Origin: Methylococcaceae bacterium | GTDB lineage: Bacteria > Pseudomonadota > Gammaproteobacteria > Methylococcales > Methylomonadaceae | Direction of reading: 5' to 3' | Length of the DNA stretch: 10,731 nucleotides | Assembly (NCBI GenBank): GCA_947505055.1 | Contig: CANNLO010000150.1 | Span: 1 to 10,731 of the forward strand | Program-made: the position numbers and the translations under genes | Part shown: piece after piece, positions 1,296 to 10,537 of the stretch | How the letters are laid out: every line of letters starts with the position of its first letter | How positions within the stretch are numbered: the first letter of the stretch is position 1 | The notes under the pieces: generated by a model | Told to the model about the DNA's origin: nothing | Seen by the model: the letters and a program-made list of their open reading frames with translations, nothing else | Databases searched by the model: none

Positions 1296-1880
1296 TTATT
1301 CCTGTCGAGGTCTACATGCACGACCACACAAACTCTGCATGACAATATGTCCAAATATAGAGTGTACATCCTCTGAATATTGCATATTGTCTACATCAAC
1401 CCAGACATGATGTTGAGCAATATCTTTTAATTTACCGCCTCTATACCCACACAAACCAAGAGTTATGGCTCCATTGTTATTTGCATATTCTACCGCCCGA
1501 ATTACGTTCTCTGAATTTCCGCTGCCAGAAATTGCAATCACTAAATCACCAGGCATAAGAATATTTTTAAGTTGCTCTGCAAAAACATCTTGAAATGATA
1601 TGTCATTGGCATATGACATTATAAGCCCTACGTTATCGACAATACTTCTACCTCGAAATGGCTTACCTCCCTCTAAAAAGATACTCTTGTTCCAGTCATT
1701 AATAAAATGTAAAGCTGTTAGAGAGCTACCGCCATTACCTAACGTAATAATTTGCTGACCTTTTTGCCAAGCTTCGTCTATGAGACTAACAGCATTATCA
1801 ATATTTACATGATCAAGGCGATTAAAAACTTCAGTTAACTTTTCAATATAGAGCAGTGAATTCCCAGTGAATTTATTCAT
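1296..1880 (-). CDS. gmhA: GmhA-type SIS-domain sedoheptulose 7-phosphate isomerase
   Basis: A 194-residue single SIS-domain protein, the usual GmhA length. It would convert sedoheptulose 7-phosphate to D-glycero-D-manno-heptose 7-phosphate, the first step of heptose nucleotide synthesis. The first phosphate-binding loop is LGNGGSSLTALHF (47-59) and the second is SGSGNSENV (118-126). The C-terminal helix has SEDVHSIFGH (169-178), with His178 matching the catalytic His180 of E. coli GmhA. By hand alignment, the E. coli base Glu65 corresponds to Asp62 here (HFINDW) and Gln172 to Glu170, so the active site is a variant, possibly of the branch that feeds GDP-heptose. The gene follows hddA by 9 bp and precedes the GT2 gene by 3 bp. 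A duplicate elsewhere for core LPS heptose is possible. The family is secure; the exact substrate follows mainly from the neighbouring heptose genes. Confidence 0.88.
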   Translation of the reverse strand: MNKFTGNSLLYIEKLTEVFNRLDHVNIDNAVSLIDEAWQKGQQIITLGNGGSSLTALHFINDWNKSIFLEGGKPFRGRSIVDNVGLIMSYANDISFQDVFAEQLKNILMPGDLVIAISGSGNSENVIRAVEYANNNGAITLGLCGYRGGKLKDIAQHHVWVDVDNMQYSEDVHSIFGHIVMQSLCGRACRPRQE

Positions 1881-1889
1881 AACTATGTC

Positions 1890-2879
1890 TCAATATGTTC
1901 GATTGTAAAAAATTATTCGGCTACCTAATGGATCAAAACTAACCGGCATCTGTCGCAACATACTTAGAGCTTTCTTAATTGCTTCATGCGACTTTTCGGG
2001 AGCATAAACCATAAGAAAACCACCTGCACCTGCTCCAAGTATTTTACCTCCTACTGCCCCAGCTTGCCTGGCCATTTCATACCAGATATCTATCTCATGG
2101 CTACTTATCCCATCTATAAGACTTTTCTTTAACAGCCAGTTTTCATGGAGAATCTCACCAAAAGCATCGGCATTATCTTTTCGCAACTCGTCCGCAAGAA
2201 TGTAAGAGAGCTCCACCATTCGATGCATTATTTTTTGCTTATTAATCTGCTCACCGACTTCAATAGACTGCTGTTTAAGTAAATTTGATGCACTACGTGT
2301 GATTCCAGTATAAAAAACCAATGTATTACTTTCAATTTTTTTTATAGTATCGTGTTTGCAAATAATTGGAGAAACTACGACCGTATCATTTTGGTTAAAC
2401 TTAATTAAGTTAAAACCACCATAAGCTGCCGCATATTGATCTTGCTTGCCAATCGGCTCACCACAGCGATCAATTTCAATATAACAACTATCTAAACTAA
2501 GTTGCTCACTTGAAGTATAACGCCCCATAAAGGCATTCAAGGCATGTAATAAACCAACAGTAAAAGAACTTGAAGACCCTAACCCAGTTCCTCTTGACGG
2601 GATATCAGCAATCGTCGTAATTTCCACTCCGCCTTCTAGTCCAAGATATTCCATCGACGCCCTCACCAGTCGATGTTCAATTTCTTGCACGGTCGAAACT
2701 TCTTCGTTTTTTGAGTAACCTACACGTATGCCATTGTCGAACTTTTTATTAACGTTTACATAAACATACTTATCTATAGCAGTACTAACGACAGCTCCAC
2801 CAAATTTCTGATAATAGCTGGGAATATCACTTCCACCACCAGTAAAACTCATACGAAGCGGAGTTCTGCTAATTATCAT
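1890..2879 (-). CDS. hddA: HddA-type GHMP kinase (D-glycero-D-manno-heptose 7-phosphate kinase)
   Basis: A 329-residue GHMP-superfamily sugar kinase, expected to phosphorylate D-glycero-D-manno-heptose 7-phosphate at C1 with ATP, giving the alpha-1,7-bisphosphate used in the GDP-heptose route. The N-terminus MIISRTPLRMSFTGGGSD (1-18) is the family signature. The ATP loop is GLGSSSSF (99-106), preceded by IPSRGT. GKQDQYAAAYGG (144-155) and the C-terminal GHMP motif GGKILGAGAGGF (277-288) are present. The frame is open upstream to a GTG at 2927, but the ATG at 2879 has AGGAG seven bases before it and matches the family N-terminus, so I use it. The start overlaps the end of the fusion gene by 11 bp, implying translational coupling. 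Length is close to characterised HddA proteins (about 340 residues). Related fucose and galactose kinases share the fold, but flanking gmhA and the GmhB-type domain favour heptose. Confidence 0.9.
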   Translation of the reverse strand: MIISRTPLRMSFTGGGSDIPSYYQKFGGAVVSTAIDKYVYVNVNKKFDNGIRVGYSKNEEVSTVQEIEHRLVRASMEYLGLEGGVEITTIADIPSRGTGLGSSSSFTVGLLHALNAFMGRYTSSEQLSLDSCYIEIDRCGEPIGKQDQYAAAYGGFNLIKFNQNDTVVVSPIICKHDTIKKIESNTLVFYTGITRSASNLLKQQSIEVGEQINKQKIMHRMVELSYILADELRKDNADAFGEILHENWLLKKSLIDGISSHEIDIWYEMARQAGAVGGKILGAGAGGFLMVYAPEKSHEAIKKALSMLRQMPVSFDPLGSRIIFYNRTY

Positions 2880-4827
2880 TTCTATGCTCCTGCAAACCGA
2901 CTGTATATCCAGAAATTGATAGACCACCTAACTCAAGGTGTATGCAATGAGTGGCGCCTTGTTTTGTTGCCAAAATAACTGGTGTTTCATCTTTTTGTCT
3001 AGACAAATACACACTCTCCGCTTCATCCAGAATCAACCCGCGCAATTGATACTCTCTAAGAATTCGGCTTTTACGTTCATTTTCGTCAATTTCAACAAAC
3101 CAAGTTTGAGCAATTTTTGTTGGTACGATACTGGCAAGAGCAAGGGCAACCGTACCCTCAATGATTACAACATCAGCAATGTCAATTTGAATAATTTCAT
3201 CTGCGTACACTCGTTTACGTGTAATCTTATCGTAGCTAGGCAAGTTCAATTCTATCAGCTGAGTACGACCGACTAACATCATTAATATCTTAGAAATTTC
3301 ATCCATCGCATACCTGCCAAGCACACCTGGCAGACGCTCATTAGCATTTCTTAACCAACGATCTGTAGAGATAACAACAGACTTACGCCCCTTGATCTTA
3401 AGTGAGTCTTTTAAGCAACTCGCTAAATTACTTTTGCCACTGCGTGACAAACCACCTATAAAAATAAATCCACCGTCGTTAATTTCTGAGCCTAACTCAG
3501 CGCATACTTTGAGAAGACGAGGATAATCTTCAAGAATAAAATTCACTGCGACCGGCAAATCTGGGGCAACGAAATCTGGTGTTGTCGCAAACCGCTGATC
3601 AAGCCCAGCGAATCCCGTTTCGACTAATATCGAACGTAAGCCTGCACGATTTGCTGTTAATAAGTCAACTGTCGTATCACCAATCATCCAGGACTGCTCA
3701 ACACCGATATTTAACTCTTGCTTTGCACGCTCAATCATACCGACACCTGGCTTGCGACAATCACATTTAATCTTCAATTCTGCAACTTCTCCTGAATAAC
3801 CACAATCAGGGTGATGCGGACAATAATAAATCCGATCCAAGTAAGCACCCTCACGTCCAAGCAATGTTTCCATTTTGTTATGTATCTGCCTTAGCTCCTG
3901 AGGTGAACATTCACCTCGAGCCAGTACTGGCTGATTAGTTACGACAACCGTCCGATAGATGGAATGGTTCAACCGATTGATCGCCTTCTCTACACCATAC
4001 ATAAGCTCTAACTGCTCATGACGAAATAAATGATCGAGTTGCCGATTTATTGTGCCATCACGATCTAGAAAAACAGCGGGCTGTTTGACATTAAGGCTTG
4101 ACCTAGCAATGCGTCCAGAAATTAAATCTGTGCAAACTTTATCTAAACGTGTAGGTGTGCCACAATCCTTTATGTATTCTGGACTGTTGTAGCCAAGCAA
4201 GACGGCTCCCTGCTTTAACATTGCAGGAAAGATATCTTTCCCAAAATCAAGTGAACCAGGTGTGTTACGCCATGGATCAAGTGCTCCTCGTCTTACATAA
4301 TAAAGCGCTGCATTGACTAAATTTGGATAGTAACTATTTGCATAGTGCGGGTACGGATAAAAAGCACAAACTTGTCCCTGATCATCAATATCAACCAAAT
4401 CTGAATCTTGCGGATGATCGTTAGGATGCAGAAACAATGTAACATCAGCATCAGGGCGAGAATTATGAAAATTTTCGAAGCGTGCTAAATCAACTTCAAG
4501 CATTGTGTCGCCATACACCACCAGAAAATTTTCTTCCAAACGTGGCAGTATGGCTAAGGTTGCTCCAGCTGTACCTAAGGGCTCACCATCGTCAACACAA
4601 TCAATGCGTATGCCCCAATTATTAAAAGTAGCACAAAAATCAATTATGTACTGTGCGCCATAATTAACAAGTAAAAATACGTGCGTATATCCATAACGCT
4701 TCAAAAGGTCAATCTGACGCTCAAGCAAAGGTTTTCCACAAACATCAATGAGTGGTTTGGGCAAACCAGCTAAACGTGTACTTAAACGTGTACCTTTGCC
4801 ACCAGCAAGTATAACTGCCTGCTTCAC
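2869..4827 (-). CDS. Three-domain fusion: sugar-1-phosphate nucleotidyltransferase (HddC-like), GmhB-type HAD phosphatase, uridine-kinase-like P-loop kinase
   Basis: A 652-residue cytoplasmic protein. Domain 1 (1-240) is a nucleotidyltransferase: LAGGKGTRL (7-15), PKPL (23-26), metal site GDT (106-108), and EYIKDCGTPTRL (217-228) near its end; it resembles HddC, which makes GDP-heptose from heptose 1-phosphate. Domain 2 (250-430) is a HAD-IIIA phosphatase like GmhB: FLDRDGTIN (253-261), VTNQ (296-299), zinc-loop residues Cys336, His338, Cys355 and Cys357, CRKP (357-360), and IGDTTVD (382-388). It should remove the 7-phosphate of heptose 1,7-bisphosphate. Domain 3 (450-635) has Walker A GGLSRSGKS (458-466), TDRW (488-491), LPSYD plus a later Arg (529-538) as in uridine kinases, Walker-B-like VVIIEG (553-558), a LID-like RILREYQLRG (588-597) and a hydrophobic C-terminal strand. 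Its substrate is unknown. The GTG start sits directly before the nucleotidyltransferase signature, overlaps the SDR stop by 4 bp (GTGA), and has AGGA 10 bases upstream. Two-domain HddC-GmhB fusions are familiar; the third domain is the odd part. Confidence 0.9.
   Translation of the reverse strand: MKQAVILAGGKGTRLSTRLAGLPKPLIDVCGKPLLERQIDLLKRYGYTHVFLLVNYGAQYIIDFCATFNNWGIRIDCVDDGEPLGTAGATLAILPRLEENFLVVYGDTMLEVDLARFENFHNSRPDADVTLFLHPNDHPQDSDLVDIDDQGQVCAFYPYPHYANSYYPNLVNAALYYVRRGALDPWRNTPGSLDFGKDIFPAMLKQGAVLLGYNSPEYIKDCGTPTRLDKVCTDLISGRIARSSLNVKQPAVFLDRDGTINRQLDHLFRHEQLELMYGVEKAINRLNHSIYRTVVVTNQPVLARGECSPQELRQIHNKMETLLGREGAYLDRIYYCPHHPDCGYSGEVAELKIKCDCRKPGVGMIERAKQELNIGVEQSWMIGDTTVDLLTANRAGLRSILVETGFAGLDQRFATTPDFVAPDLPVAVNFILEDYPRLLKVCAELGSEINDGGFIFIGGLSRSGKSNLASCLKDSLKIKGRKSVVISTDRWLRNANERLPGVLGRYAMDEISKILMMLVGRTQLIELNLPSYDKITRKRVYADEIIQIDIADVVIIEGTVALALASIVPTKIAQTWFVEIDENERKSRILREYQLRGLILDEAESVYLSRQKDETPVILATKQGATHCIHLELGGLSISGYTVGLQEHRNDN
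2887..2891 (-). promoter_or_regulatory. Ribosome binding site setting the hddA start
   Basis: AGGAG on the minus strand lies seven bases before the ATG at 2879-2877. It sits inside the last codons of the upstream fusion gene. It supports the ATG over the longer GTG start at 2927, which would add 16 residues with no match to the kinase family. Confidence 0.75.
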
Positions 4828-5789
4828 CCGTTAGATTCCTGATCAGCAATCTGACGAACTGCATAACGAACAGCTTCAACCGAAGCCATTCGAGGCTTCC
4901 AGCCAAGTTGGTGCAATTTATCAACTGAGTAGCTGAACTTTGGCACATCGCCTACCCAACCTTTGTTGCCTTGGCCATATGTAATCGAAGCATTGGGCGA
5001 TACCGTATTAACCACTTGATTTGCGATGTCATGAACAGTAATGCCATCATCGCCCGCACCAATATTGAAGTAATTCAGACGCTCGGTAGAGTGCTCACGA
5101 ATAAATAGCATAGCATCAATCAAATCTTCAAGATGCAAGTAGCTTTTTTGTTGAGTGCCGTCACCCAAAACCACAAGATTACCTGGTGTAGCCTTCAACT
5201 TACGAATAAAATCCAACATTACTCCATGTGTTGCCGGGATGCCAATGACATTCGGGAAACGAAAGATATAGGCATGGGTAAGAAAACTCTCGGCTGAGGC
5301 GCTAATTGCAGCCTCTGAGGCAAGCTTCATTGCGCCATAATTTGAGATGGGAAATAGTGGTCCGATATCTTCGACGAGCTTAGCTTCACCCAAGTTCCCA
5401 TAAATTGCTGAACTAGACGCGAACAATAGTACACGCATGCCAAATTCTTTCATTATTTCTAGCGTGTTAAAGGTAGTCATAAACGTATCCCGCAGGTCTA
5501 CCTGCGAATCGTACACCCCAGCAGGGATATCTGAATTTGCAGCCATATGCCACACCTCAGTAATAGGACCATTGAAATGATTGCTTTTGATTACGTCCCT
5601 ATAAGCGTTCAAATCAGACAAGTCAACCTCGGCAAAAGAAAATAATTCATTACCAAGTAGATGCTCAATATTAGATAGACTACCTCGGCAGAAATTATCT
5701 AGACCAACCACTTTTTTGCCTTGCCTGATAAATATGTTCGCCAAATTGCAGCCAATAAAACCCGCAACACCTGTAATTAAAATTGTCAT
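4824..5789 (-). CDS. Extended SDR: NAD-dependent sugar-nucleotide epimerase/dehydratase family
   Basis: A 321-residue Rossmann-fold enzyme acting on a nucleotide-linked sugar in the cytoplasm. The cofactor loop is TGVAGFIG (6-13), and Asp31 at the end of strand 2 (GLDN) suggests NAD(H) preference. FASSSAIYGN (123-132) supplies the active-site serine, and Tyr151/Lys155 (NYGAMKLASE) form the YxxxK pair. GDGTQQKSYLHLEDL (209-223) matches the nucleotide-sugar side. The serine motif lacks the acidic residue typical of 4,6-dehydratases (TDE in RmlB, SSE-like in Gmd), so an epimerase or reductase-type reaction fits better. The frame is open to a GTG at 5846, but the ATG at 5789 begins the Rossmann signature and overlaps the GT11 stop by 4 bp (ATGA). 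It overlaps the fusion gene by 4 bp at its other end. This tight link suggests that it acts on the GDP-heptose product, but UDP-hexose is equally possible from sequence alone. Confidence 0.85.
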   Translation of the reverse strand: MTILITGVAGFIGCNLANIFIRQGKKVVGLDNFCRGSLSNIEHLLGNELFSFAEVDLSDLNAYRDVIKSNHFNGPITEVWHMAANSDIPAGVYDSQVDLRDTFMTTFNTLEIMKEFGMRVLLFASSSAIYGNLGEAKLVEDIGPLFPISNYGAMKLASEAAISASAESFLTHAYIFRFPNVIGIPATHGVMLDFIRKLKATPGNLVVLGDGTQQKSYLHLEDLIDAMLFIREHSTERLNYFNIGAGDDGITVHDIANQVVNTVSPNASITYGQGNKGWVGDVPKFSYSVDKLHQLGWKPRMASVEAVRYAVRQIADQESNG

Positions 5790-6664
5790 AATACTATCCA
5801 ATCTCGCGGTAAGATATCCTGTGTATTTTTCTGATTTATAAACCACTGGCTAGGTGCTACTACAATCTTATCATTACTGGCATTCAACCATGCTCCCCAC
5901 CAACTAAATGAGCTATTAGCAATAATATTGTGCTTACACAAACTCATTAGCCTCATGTCGTTATAACTCTCGACACCATGATTGTGATCAACGTACTGAT
6001 GAGGAAAATCTATTTTTAGATTTAACTTTACCCACTCAATATCATCTGAGAAAATAAAAAAATGTGGGCGCTGTATTCGTTCAGCTATATACCGGATCGA
6101 TGCAAGATAATAATTTAAAGTACATACCCCGTGAGCTGCATTAAATTTCGGGTTACTTATATAATCACCACGCCTGACATGAACACTCACTGCATTTACA
6201 TGATTTATTTGATCAGCTAGTCCAACATTTCGATCATCCATTGGCTGTCTAAATGAAAAATCTTTTCGAATTCTCTCAGCCTCGAGTAAAAAATAATTCT
6301 CAGTCTGCCAGTAACCCATAAGATAACATTCTGATGGCACATTGTTTATTCCAACCCAAAAGTGAATGTGGGGCTCAATAACAAACTCTTTAATACGTAA
6401 CATTGCCCAGCCTGGACGTGAGACAATTCGCCTAATAAGGGAATAGGACTGCCAACCTAGTATTCGATGTATATCCGTCTTGACAGCGACTTCTATGGGA
6501 CAATCAAAAACTCGCTGAAGCTCGAACCCATGATGTAAATGATAATTATCAAAACTAGAAATGTCTAATTTTAAAGCTTGCCCACGTGCAATCGATAATG
6601 CTCGTCCAGCTGCATACTGAAACATTTGGTTTCCAAGCCCACCAATTAAATGTGAAATAATCAC
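5786..6664 (-). CDS. GT11-family glycosyltransferase (alpha-1,2-fucosyltransferase family)
   Basis: A 292-residue protein, the normal size for bacterial GT11 enzymes such as WbsJ and FutC. These transfer fucose from GDP-fucose to O2 of a galactosyl or other acceptor at the inner face of the membrane. The N-terminus LIGGLGNQMFQYAAGRAL (6-23) is the family hallmark. HVRRGDY (162-168) is the donor-binding motif shared with other GDP-fucose enzymes. FFIFSDDIEW (202-211) and the C-terminal block DMRLMSLCKHNIIANSSFSWWG (236-257) follow as expected. The start is GTG, because only this position gives the conserved N-terminus and it has AAGGG at 6673-6677, eight bases upstream. It follows the methyltransferase by 18 bp and overlaps the SDR by 4 bp. 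No GDP-fucose synthesis genes lie in the window, so the donor must be made elsewhere, or the enzyme uses another GDP-sugar. Family call is secure; linkage and acceptor are inferred. Confidence 0.92.
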   Translation of the reverse strand: MIISHLIGGLGNQMFQYAAGRALSIARGQALKLDISSFDNYHLHHGFELQRVFDCPIEVAVKTDIHRILGWQSYSLIRRIVSRPGWAMLRIKEFVIEPHIHFWVGINNVPSECYLMGYWQTENYFLLEAERIRKDFSFRQPMDDRNVGLADQINHVNAVSVHVRRGDYISNPKFNAAHGVCTLNYYLASIRYIAERIQRPHFFIFSDDIEWVKLNLKIDFPHQYVDHNHGVESYNDMRLMSLCKHNIIANSSFSWWGAWLNASNDKIVVAPSQWFINQKNTQDILPRDWIVL

Positions 6665-8231: not shown

Positions 8232-9524
8232 TCAGGTAGTGGGTATAAAAAAAGAAAGGATAAAAATAAAACTACAGAAAGGAACGAACCAGCATGGAAA
8301 TCTAATCCATTCTGCCATTTTTTTGGTCTCAAAATACACTGCAATTAAGGCAAGCATGTTGCAAATAAAAAATGTTAGCACTGCCCCCTTAATCAATAAG
8401 ACAGGAATAATAAGGTAATTTAGTAGCACCGCAACCAAAAGTAGCACTATGCCATTAATTACGGCTATATAAAGCTTCATTTTTTGTATTAATACTTGCG
8501 CCATGAATTGCATCATCCCTTCCACCATTACCGCAACAAATAATGATAGTAGAATTGGCACTGCTTCAATAAATTTTCCGCCAAAAATACCCACAACTAA
8601 TAGTTTAGCCATCGTGTAATACACCAGCGTCGCAAATATACATAACACACACAACAACCATTCTGTTTTACGAAAAATCGCATTACACGCAGGACCATCT
8701 TGGTTTTGCAAGCTTTTCATTAATAAGATGCTATTTGATTTCAATATCGCCGAAACAAAAACTCTGCCTACACCAATAGAAAGAAATGTTGCCATTGAGT
8801 ACACTGCAACGTCTCTAATCGTTAGTATATGACCCAACAAATATTTGTCTGCAAAACCCAGTGCAGCGGATATAAACATTCCAGGGATCGCTACCCAACC
8901 TAGAAATATAAGCTCCTTTGTGCCAAATACTCTATTGGTTGAATTTAGCCCAACACCAAATGCTTGTTTCAAACTTGTAATAATTGCTACAATAGAAAAT
9001 ATGGCGCTAGCAATTACTGCTACAAGATACCCTGTAATTGAAGGATTAAGTGTTGCTACGCCAATCAAAACAAATCCACCGACAAGAACGGAAATAAAAT
9101 AGTTTCGATAACGATCCATACAATTTATCAAGGATATAAAAAAAGCTTGTAATGTACTTGAAAGTGCCGCTAACAAACCAAGTAGCATAATCATCAACGA
9201 CAATTCTTTTTCATACCACTTGTACCACAAGATTAGGCCCACACAGCTAAATACAATAACAGAAACGCCTATAATCTTTAGCGCAGAAAATACCTCTTGC
9301 TTAACATTGCGGCACATCTTTTTTTCTTCAGAAAAATATGCCATAGATATTGCAGTTGCCTGCCCAAACATAAAGAGTGAAACAAAAATCCCTATACCCG
9401 CAGAAACTAAGCTAAATCGACCATAATCTTCGATTGATAGCTTTTGAGATAAAAAATAATTGACAAGGAATTGGCTCACTGCGGCAACAATAACCGCACC
9501 AAAATAGTGCGTCTGCCTAATCAC
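8232..9524 (-). CDS. wzx: Wzx-like polysaccharide flippase (MOP/MATE superfamily)
   Basis: A 430-residue inner-membrane protein with about 12-13 hydrophobic segments (for example near 9-25, 36-56, 84-101, 108-132, 142-160, 163-185, 287-306, 322-346, 351-370, 372-396 and 408-427). The N-terminus, with a first helix followed by LSIEDYGRFSLVSAG (29-43), is typical of Wzx and RfbX proteins, where the loop LxxEDYGxF follows TM1. Such proteins move undecaprenyl-diphosphate-linked repeat units from the cytoplasmic to the periplasmic face. Length is within the family range (about 400-480). The start is GTG, within a 4-bp GTGA overlap with the GT10 stop; the Shine-Dalgarno is weak, so translation likely depends on coupling. 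Wzx sequences diverge so much that the gene symbol is a role assignment. Its presence favours the Wzx/Wzy assembly route over an ABC-transporter route. Confidence 0.87.
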   Translation of the reverse strand: MIRQTHYFGAVIVAAVSQFLVNYFLSQKLSIEDYGRFSLVSAGIGIFVSLFMFGQATAISMAYFSEEKKMCRNVKQEVFSALKIIGVSVIVFSCVGLILWYKWYEKELSLMIMLLGLLAALSSTLQAFFISLINCMDRYRNYFISVLVGGFVLIGVATLNPSITGYLVAVIASAIFSIVAIITSLKQAFGVGLNSTNRVFGTKELIFLGWVAIPGMFISAALGFADKYLLGHILTIRDVAVYSMATFLSIGVGRVFVSAILKSNSILLMKSLQNQDGPACNAIFRKTEWLLCVLCIFATLVYYTMAKLLVVGIFGGKFIEAVPILLSLFVAVMVEGMMQFMAQVLIQKMKLYIAVINGIVLLLVAVLLNYLIIPVLLIKGAVLTFFICNMLALIAVYFETKKMAEWIRFPCWFVPFCSFIFILSFFIPTT

Positions 9525-10537
9525 GACAATTGTTCAATGTCAGCCAAGACAGTTTCAACAATATTAGATGCGAAAGTCTCAGCGTGAAATATTTTAGCCG
9601 ATTGACTCTCAAGAAATGTCTTAATTGCACTCTGGTATGCAGAGTAGTCTTTTTCCGGCATATTCAATAAAAAAAGATATAAACTTTCATGGTCTTTAAA
9701 TTTTCGCCTGTCAACAAAACATGTTTCCGGTATATAGTTAAAAATATTAGATGCTCCCCAATAAACAGGAATAGTACCGGCGAAGAAACAGTCAAATATT
9801 TTCTCTGTGATATATCCACGAATATCGCTCATGTTTTCATAGCAAATAGAAAACCGATATCTCACCAAAGTATCTCGCTTATTCTCAACTTTACCGCGAT
9901 AGGATGGGAATGGTCGCTTGCCCACCCAGCGATATAAAGTAGTCAAAACTTTAGACCTAAACTTACCAATTAAACCTGGGAGGCTAGAAGGACCATCCCA
10001 ACCGTTACCAAACAAATCAAAATCATTAGGTGCGTGGCATTCGAACCACCTGAACGTTTCTACACGTTTAGAATATAATTCGCGTTGATCCTTATTATTG
10101 ACACTCTTGTTACCTGCAATCGCACAACACAATCTGTCACGACCATTCCAGCCAACAGTAAAGGGAGTTGTATCGTTAACAATAGGGAGATGGAATTTTA
10201 CATATTTATAGGTCTCGACTAAACTGTCGTCCCAAGAAAAAACACGGCGATAATTTTTTCTAATTTCAAGCGTGTCATTTTTTGGATTAACCTGACTTGT
10301 TTCCCACAAAAAAAGGTAGGATGGATTAGATGTTTTGACTTTCTGGACATCTATATGAATCTCAAATGCAACGGGTTTACTACCATTAACATCGGGTGTA
10401 TTGAGTTCTATGCCATGGTCTTTGAATTTTTGCTGTAACAGCCAAAATGGATAAGTACAATTATCTCTGTGACCTTGATTAAACCAAGCATTATTAAAAA
10501 CTCCATCAACCCTGAAATTTGCTAATAGAAATGTCAT
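9521..10537 (-). CDS. GT10-family glycosyltransferase (alpha-1,3/4-fucosyltransferase family)
   Basis: A 338-residue protein with the C-terminal signature of GT10. The block YRFSICYENMSDIRGYITEK (227-246) followed by IFDCFFAGTIPVYWGASNI (247-265) matches the GDP-fucose-binding motif of enzymes such as H. pylori FutA (family form: FENS, then Y(V/I)TEK, then IPIYWG). Glu234 and the TEK of 244-246 are the conserved donor-binding residues. The N-terminal half, with Trp-rich segments and FLWETSQVNP (76-85), is the acceptor domain and is poorly conserved, as usual. No C-terminal heptad repeats like those of H. pylori are present. The ATG follows directly after an in-frame TGA, so the start cannot be upstream; a weak GGGA lies nine bases before it. 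It is the first complete gene after an 86-bp gap and overlaps the flippase gene by 4 bp. The expected donor is GDP-fucose, but no synthesis genes for it are visible. Confidence 0.88.
   Translation of the reverse strand: MTFLLANFRVDGVFNNAWFNQGHRDNCTYPFWLLQQKFKDHGIELNTPDVNGSKPVAFEIHIDVQKVKTSNPSYLFLWETSQVNPKNDTLEIRKNYRRVFSWDDSLVETYKYVKFHLPIVNDTTPFTVGWNGRDRLCCAIAGNKSVNNKDQRELYSKRVETFRWFECHAPNDFDLFGNGWDGPSSLPGLIGKFRSKVLTTLYRWVGKRPFPSYRGKVENKRDTLVRYRFSICYENMSDIRGYITEKIFDCFFAGTIPVYWGASNIFNYIPETCFVDRRKFKDHESLYLFLLNMPEKDYSAYQSAIKTFLESQSAKIFHAETFASNIVETVLADIEQLS

Follow-up and report, generated by a model that had tools for sequence, protein, structure and literature searches.

A uridine kinase-like domain recurrently fused to two GDP-heptose-type enzymes may act outside the known pathway

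Main

Four steps lead from sedoheptulose 7-phosphate to GDP-heptose, and the system described in C. jejuni (PMC10680097) provides for them with a sugar-1-phosphate nucleotidyltransferase (HddC), a HAD-IIIA phosphatase (GmhB), a GHMP kinase (HddA) and an SIS isomerase (GmhA). There, HddC and GmhB are separate, GmhB is encoded outside the capsule locus and the accessible text of that paper describes no further kinase. The same four enzyme types are predicted from sequence at one locus of a 10,731-nucleotide stretch from a Methylococcaceae bacterium (contig CANNLO010000150.1; the whole stretch is hereafter 'the window'), but here the HddC-like and GmhB-like enzymes are fused and the fusion adds a third domain, a P-loop kinase of the uridine kinase/phosphoribulokinase (URK/PRK) fold. 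A preliminary description of this DNA had recognized that domain and found no step for it; alignment and predicted fold confirm that it is real, with intact catalytic residues, and the neighbouring hddA-like and gmhA-like genes do leave the pathway without a gap.

On balance of evidence that we regard as about even, the domain would be an auxiliary, active enzyme of the URK/PRK superfamily that uses ATP to phosphorylate an anionic small molecule, probably a sugar phosphate, and works outside the four steps. ATP would bind at the GGLSRSGKS P-loop, with Mg2+ held by S466, D489 and E557, and D489 would deprotonate the acceptor hydroxyl, while R498, R505 and Y532 together with R588 would grip its negative group, most likely the phosphate moiety of a phosphorylated sugar. 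The kinase would perform none of the four steps; it would have been fused to the cassette early and afterwards lost, or kept alone, in several lineages. We found no description of a kinase fused to HddC or GmhB in the open literature, searched at the level of titles and the beginnings of abstracts and with most subscription papers outside its reach. Source records that name the fusions call them 'HAD-IIIA family hydrolase' or 'histidinol-phosphate phosphatase family protein', names under which the third enzyme goes unseen.

A kinase fold with conserved catalytic residues

The AlphaFold model of the kinase domain has a predicted local distance difference test (pLDDT) score of 92.4 and, with UCK, PanK and PRK as its top Foldseek and VIA matches, the predicted structure has the P-loop kinase fold of the PF00485 superfamily. 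Uridine kinase is both the top fold match and the best-matching kinase profile, and the domain shares with human UCK2, Escherichia coli Udk and the udk profile TIGR00235 the fold, the P-loop, the catalytic Asp, the Mg ligands and the order of motifs. These searches, proposed in the preliminary description, support the fold and stop short of a family assignment: the domain reaches 29.8 bits against the curated TIGR00235 cut-off of 220.3, and for the phosphoribulokinase family PF00485 it scores 20.3 bits, under the Pfam gathering score of 22 (exceeded by a relative, P0096, with 35.5 bits), with a weak hhalign match to E. coli PrkB (probability 6.6). A further likeness is to 1rz3, a possible uridine kinase of Bacillus stearothermophilus whose P-loop reads GLSRSGK and in which an Arg aligns with R498. 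The best NCBIfam match of P0048, a free-standing relative, is the PRK07667 'kinase' family NF005807, but at 28.4 bits against a cut-off of 221; we would guess that 1rz3 belongs to this family, and neither record gives a function.

In UCK2, Asp62 is the base, Ser34 and Glu135 are Mg ligands, His117 recognizes uridine, and Asp84 and Arg166 contact the ribose hydroxyls, according to the accessible part of PMC9163393. Over 66 aligned members, window included, the counterpart of Asp62 (D489) is invariant, that of Ser34 (S466) is always S or T and that of Glu135 (E557) is E in 57 and D in 9; Y532 (UCK2 Tyr112) is found in all 66 and R588 (Arg166) in 65. The complete or near-complete invariance of the catalytic Asp, the P-loop Lys and two extra arginines makes an active kinase probable. 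The alternative, a non-catalytic nucleotide-binding domain that stabilizes or regulates both partner domains, would fit a single confident model of the whole fusion (predicted template modelling score 0.89), the rank of the kinase as its fastest-evolving part and a pathway that requires no such step. Against it stand the free-standing forms, the forms with a dead phosphatase, and the base, P-loop Lys and LID-side arginines kept in nearly all members; given this conservation of catalytic residues a purely structural role is unlikely, and we consider the non-catalytic reading very improbable.

The acceptor site argues against a nucleoside

One role suggested at first for the domain was nucleoside recycling, and an ordinary uridine or cytidine kinase would account for the best fold and profile matches and for the conserved Y532 and R588. 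The pocket does not bear this out: position 537, which corresponds to the uridine-recognizing His117, is R in 37 members, Q in 19 and His in none of the 66, and at the position of Asp84, whose placement depends on the alignment, only 42 of the 66 have D when hhalign is used, the window having A. Given these pocket residues, and with a udk score far under the cut-off, nucleoside salvage is unlikely; judged by its nucleoside-specificity residues the domain does not appear to be a uridine kinase, from which it also differs in being fused to two other enzymes, and we hold this explanation to be the least probable considered here.

Two arginines may mark the site instead. R498 is fixed in all 66 members and R505 in 63, and neither has an Arg counterpart in UCK2 (K73 and Q80) or Udk (L and N) on either alignment. 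In the phosphoribulokinase of M. hungatei, the accessible part of PMC5241800 places the phosphate of ribulose 5-phosphate at Arg59, Arg62, Tyr98 and His100; the kinase domain has Arg and Tyr at comparable places, with a different spacing and without conservation of the His. From the fixed arginines and their likeness to this phosphate site we infer that the acceptor is anionic, probably a phosphate.

The cassette persists without the kinase

Of 398 genomes sampled from the phylum, 26 match the first two domains. Among them are distant two-domain HddC-GmhB fusions (open frames of 404-489 residues, 27-34% identical) that have these domains in the same order as the window and form a separate clade in a quick tree; none of the 10 rows tested carries the kinase, and an HddA-like gene lies within the roughly 4-kb locus in four of nine (L077-L082, L085, L087 and L090). 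Closer relatives also lack it. G569 is 55% identical and has gmhA-like, SDR and hddA-like genes in place, with HddA beginning 10 bases past the fusion stop, and G536 and G459 are about 39% identical with an hddA-like gene nearby; no kinase copy was found elsewhere in these three genomes. The kinase is present in G646 (35%). An apparent 980-residue frame in G569 was set aside, as the open frame extends upstream of the true start and has no C-terminal kinase.

In the quick tree (57 rows, first two domains) the kinase clade comprises 47 rows, 44 with and 3 without the kinase, a ratio biased because most kinase rows were found by searching for the kinase, and its presence and absence require four changes. 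G569 falls within this clade (forks with a Shimodaira-Hasegawa-like approximate likelihood ratio of 99), which indicates loss of the kinase; the branches that carry G536 and G459 are weak or long. In at least one case, then, the cassette does without the kinase while having every partner in place. Because the four-step cassette can persist in its absence, we rejected the kinase as a step of the known pathway, in which every step has a candidate gene and which three hddA-linked relatives keep without it. Nor does it track HldE of the ADP-heptose route, which exceeds its cut-off in 15 of 21 genomes; its presence and its absence each occur with and without the kinase.

The kinase outlives its partners

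The reverse is also seen. Among 82 genomes of the Nitrospirillum family sample, 10 have the kinase, at 11 places. Four of these places keep the nucleotidyltransferase motifs (one with YAD instead of YGD). At the other seven, in a Nitrospirillum-like clade (loci L146, L149 and L152-L156; genomes G007, G006, G1130, G1128, G1127, G1129 and G1126), the nucleotidyltransferase is dead, without GGxGTR...PKP and GTAGA and with PGD or SGD replacing YGD (at L149 its first stretch lies past the contig end), and the same proteins retain the HAD and kinase motifs. All seven adjoin genes for an M61-type peptidase, a helix-turn-helix-cupin regulator and a hydantoinase-type protein, and five also lie beside gluconolactonase-like, GntR-type and methylglyoxal-synthase-like genes (assigned by Pfam for L023 and by eye for the rest). 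The stretches around the seven loci contain no hddA-like gene; G006 and G007 have a distant one (33%) some 18-22 kb off, G1130 has a canonical copy as well, 34 kb away, and L155 has an adjacent GmhA-like gene. In G1126, G1127 and G1128 no GmhA was found at an E value of 1e-10 (TIGR00441), only weak SIS_2 matches with E values of 3e-8 or worse.

Several of these loci also stand beside a sugar-acid catabolism set (DgoK-like, KDPGal-aldolase-like and symporter genes, named by eye). In G1126, G1127 and G1128 (L189-L191) an HldE over its cut-off lies about 12 kb from the dead-nucleotidyltransferase gene, with an HldD-like epimerase, identified by eye, beside it in the first two.

Further forms occur among database proteins. 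In P0035 and P0133 the kinase follows a remnant of HAD that has neither the nucleophile nor the Zn ligands nor the GD motif; in P0048, P0050, P0051 and P0055 it is free-standing; and in P0037 it is joined to a WbuC-type cupin (a precomputed label, with no match in a Pfam scan at an E value of 0.01). A WbuC-type domain also occurs together with an SDR epimerase domain in seven database clusters of 512-556 residues (P0135-P0141).

In the six pairs among the closest dead-nucleotidyltransferase loci (L152, L153, L154 and L156), the ratio of non-synonymous to synonymous substitution rates (dN/dS) reaches 0.38-0.59 in the dead domain, compared with 0.10-0.16 in HAD and 0.09-0.20 in the kinase, so that phosphatase and kinase are under purifying selection in these pairs. 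Close canonical pairs give 0.13-0.28 for the kinase, 0.06-0.14 for the nucleotidyltransferase and 0.07-0.10 for HAD (six of ten pairs; in the remaining four, dS was saturated for one or more domains).

Kept with its catalytic residues beside either dead partner and alone, the kinase is most simply an enzyme with its own product, and its persistence after partner decay points to a separate reaction. Nothing requires it to act in the heptose pathway at all, because the cassette can do without it and it survives the decay of either the nucleotidyltransferase or the phosphatase. A heptose substrate for the undescribed reaction suggested at the outset is conjectural.

One alternative close to heptose metabolism is a salvage or repair kinase that would rephosphorylate free heptose or sedoheptulose, lost by hydrolysis, at the primary C7 hydroxyl and so refill the heptose-7-phosphate pool. 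URK enzymes do phosphorylate a primary hydroxyl, the 5'-OH of nucleosides (accessible part of PMC9163393). The operon shared with GmhA-like, HddA-like and GmhB-like functions is in keeping with such a role, as is dispensability in some lineages, which a salvage step would be expected to show. The invariant Arg pair suggests a charged acceptor instead, the three Nitrospirillum-like genomes named above keep the kinase with no GmhA found, and we know of no source of free heptose in the carrier cells; we judge salvage unlikely.

A widespread tri-domain family and its genomic company

The fusion belongs to a widespread tri-domain family. By precomputed Pfam annotation, 32 of 37 homologues of the kinase region carry both partner domains. 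A short-motif scan of a genome collection of 84,980 species returned 64 stretches, 40 of which encode a relative, and tblastn with parts of the window as queries (E value 1e-15) recovers HAD in 38, the nucleotidyltransferase in 37 and the kinase in 30 of these 40 loci. Loci whose kinase lies above that threshold are more distant relatives, and of the loci where a partner domain was missed, L020 and L022 run to the end of their contig, while L040 matches marginally (38% over 42 residues) and was not counted as a member. Record labels name six phyla, Pseudomonadota, Bacteroidota, Acidobacteriota, Thermodesulfobacteriota, Nitrospirota and Bacillota, although several labelled loci, the Bacillota one included, are metagenome bins whose single labels may be wrong.

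In a 399-genome sample of one order, strong kinase matches (E value 1e-30 or lower) occur in four genomes and the HddC-GmhB pair (1e-40 or lower) in the same four; weak profile matches in 64 of the 399 (6.7e-8 or worse) were left uncounted, taken by score as ordinary uridine kinases or other P-loop proteins. Of 296 genomes of Bacteroidota, the phylum of L030, 45 have matches to portions of the first two domains, and a strong full-length match is confined to G008, the genome of L030 itself. A wider profile matches 159 of the 296 at 1e-8, with G008 at 1e-52 and the others at 7e-18 or worse, and these others were set aside on the same grounds. At most eight (kinase) and four (HddC-GmhB) candidates per genome were scored in the 399, four in the 398-genome phylum sample, and five (two domains) and ten (wider profile) in the Bacteroidota, so that absences are not proofs. 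The viral contigs and phages searched contain no relative, and one of 72,556 plasmid records, Methylovirgula pHY1, has the full cassette. On that plasmid (L110; Methylovirgula sp. HY1 plasmid pHY1, 169121-199630) the cassette lies near an IS21 element, CDP-glucose-pathway genes and a two-gene transketolase.

Anywhere in the available stretches, incomplete contigs included, HddA-like genes are found in 34 of the 40 loci, GmhA-like in 28 and SDR (more than 34% identity) in 27, and other genes that recur next to the cassette do so in no more than a few related loci. Glycan genes surround the cassette both in the window and on the Methylovirgula plasmid, and relatives of the window's GT2-like and GT11-like glycosyltransferases occur in 9 and 5 of the 40 loci. 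WbuC, the type of protein joined to the kinase in P0037, is linked with O-antigen. This company and an Arg cluster suited to an anionic acceptor would fit a tailoring kinase that phosphorylates a GDP-sugar or sugar phosphate and so gives a phospho-sugar in surface polysaccharide. The seven dead-nucleotidyltransferase loci, however, adjoin peptidase, regulator, hydantoinase-type and mostly sugar-catabolism genes with no glycan cluster, and we know of no polysaccharide structure from a carrier strain, having made no literature search for one; we regard tailoring as quite unlikely.

The locus and its partner domains

The order SDR, fusion, hddA-like and gmhA-like resembles an operon (Table 1). 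The first 4 bases of the tri-domain gene lie inside the 3' end of the upstream SDR gene, and the HddA-like gene, whose frame is open from 2927 and whose likely ATG at 2879 is inferred from sequence, shares 11 bases with the 3' end of the tri-domain gene.

Table 1 Features of the window discussed in the text.
Feature	Coordinates	Strand	Basis
Tri-domain protein (HddC-like/GmhB-like/kinase)	2869..4827	-	Single frame, 652 residues, GTG start
Sugar-1-phosphate nucleotidyltransferase domain (HddC-like), residues 1-240	4108..4827	-	PF00483, E 2.6e-20
HAD-IIIA phosphatase domain (GmhB-like; GmhB/histidinol-phosphatase type), residues 248-432	3532..4086	-	TIGR01656, PRK08942
URK/PRK-fold P-loop kinase domain, residues 447-635	2923..3489	-	Profile, alignment and fold searches; marked residues: P-loop 458-466, D489, W491, R498, R505, Y532, E557, R585, R588, R610, E614
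HddA-like GHMP kinase	1890..2879	-	PF00288, PF08544; NF049969 (HddA) 164.9 bits, below cut-off 600
GmhA-like SIS isomerase	1296..1880	-	PF13580; TIGR00441 91.7 bits, below cut-off 209.45
SDR epimerase/dehydratase-like, upstream of fusion	4824..5789	-	PF01370; likely start 5789
GT11-type (fucosyltransferase-like) gene	5786-6664	-	
GT10-type (fucosyltransferase-like) gene	9521-10537	-	

The first two domains had been assigned to the HddC and GmhB steps and the pathway kinase step to the adjacent hddA. The enzyme types are right: the nucleotidyltransferase domain has the GGKGTRL, PKPL and YGDT motifs, the HAD domain has FLDRDG, CPHH...CDCRKP and GDTTVD, and an HddA-like gene is in place. The names HddC, GmhB, HddA and GmhA need caution, as all four fall under their NCBIfam equivalog cut-offs. 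The first domain scores 72.3 bits with the HddC model NF049965 (cut-off 300) and better, 129 bits, with a mannose-1-phosphate guanylyltransferase model (man1P_GTase_Rv) whose own cut-off of 440 is also unmet; the HAD domain scores 144.3 bits with PRK08942/NF006506 (GmhB; cut-off 178) and passes the broader TIGR01656 (117 bits against 84.15) and TIGR01662. The heptose roles of the partner domains are therefore putative, drawn from operon logic and sub-cut-off profile matches.

The SDR, whose closest PDB entry is 8rdg (E value 1.6e-70), may be the first enzyme to act on the GDP-sugar product. NCBIfam models for GDP-fucose synthesis identify none of the window's genes at their cut-offs, and the donor of the GT11-type and GT10-type enzymes could be the GDP-sugar of the locus itself.

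Discussion

We favour an auxiliary kinase outside the four steps, against which several observations weigh. R498 and R505 match the PRK phosphate site by kind and rough position, with no residue-exact superposition; their spacings from the catalytic Asp are 9 and 16 residues, against about 7 and 10 in PRK by the M. hungatei numbering, and two alignments set their loop 2 residues apart. K534 was rejected as an equivalent of PRK His100, since it is not conserved (37 of the 66 members have K there and 8 have R), and position 591, the counterpart of UCK2 Arg169, which we take to be a LID arginine, is variable (R in 12 of 66). The kinase also evolves fastest, with a mean pairwise identity of 0.47 against 0.66 and 0.64 for its partners and 22 invariant columns in 182. 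Beyond the closest loci the contrast in dN/dS is lost: the other 22 pairs, more distant and including those with the canonical L150, give 0.36-0.60 for the dead domain, 0.16-0.41 for HAD and 0.27-0.63 for the kinase, and between L146 and L149 it is reversed, with the kinase at 0.41 above the dead domain at 0.37. Finally, the free-standing and dead-HAD forms were assessed at the level of the protein sequence.

As to the substrate, a heptose or heptulose phosphate is a first guess for the canonical operons, made because of the gene company that the kinase keeps; the Nitrospirillum and free-standing cases mean that it may be a more general metabolite. More tentatively, and as a possibility that we rate well short of even, the domain could be the first of a kinase family of its own whose reaction has not been described before, turning a sugar phosphate, such as that of a heptose or heptulose, into a bisphosphate for a branch of surface-glycan synthesis or for control of the bisphosphate level. 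In the latter variant the fused phosphatase would oppose the kinase, much as in bifunctional regulators that combine a sugar kinase with a phosphatase. That the kinase also occurs alone and beside dead partners suggests that its own product matters to the cell.

If the kinase does make a new sugar phosphate, current pathway maps would miss a step of bacterial surface-glycan or heptose metabolism. The natural series described here, with the kinase absent, the nucleotidyltransferase dead, the phosphatase dead or the kinase alone, makes this question directly amenable to assay.

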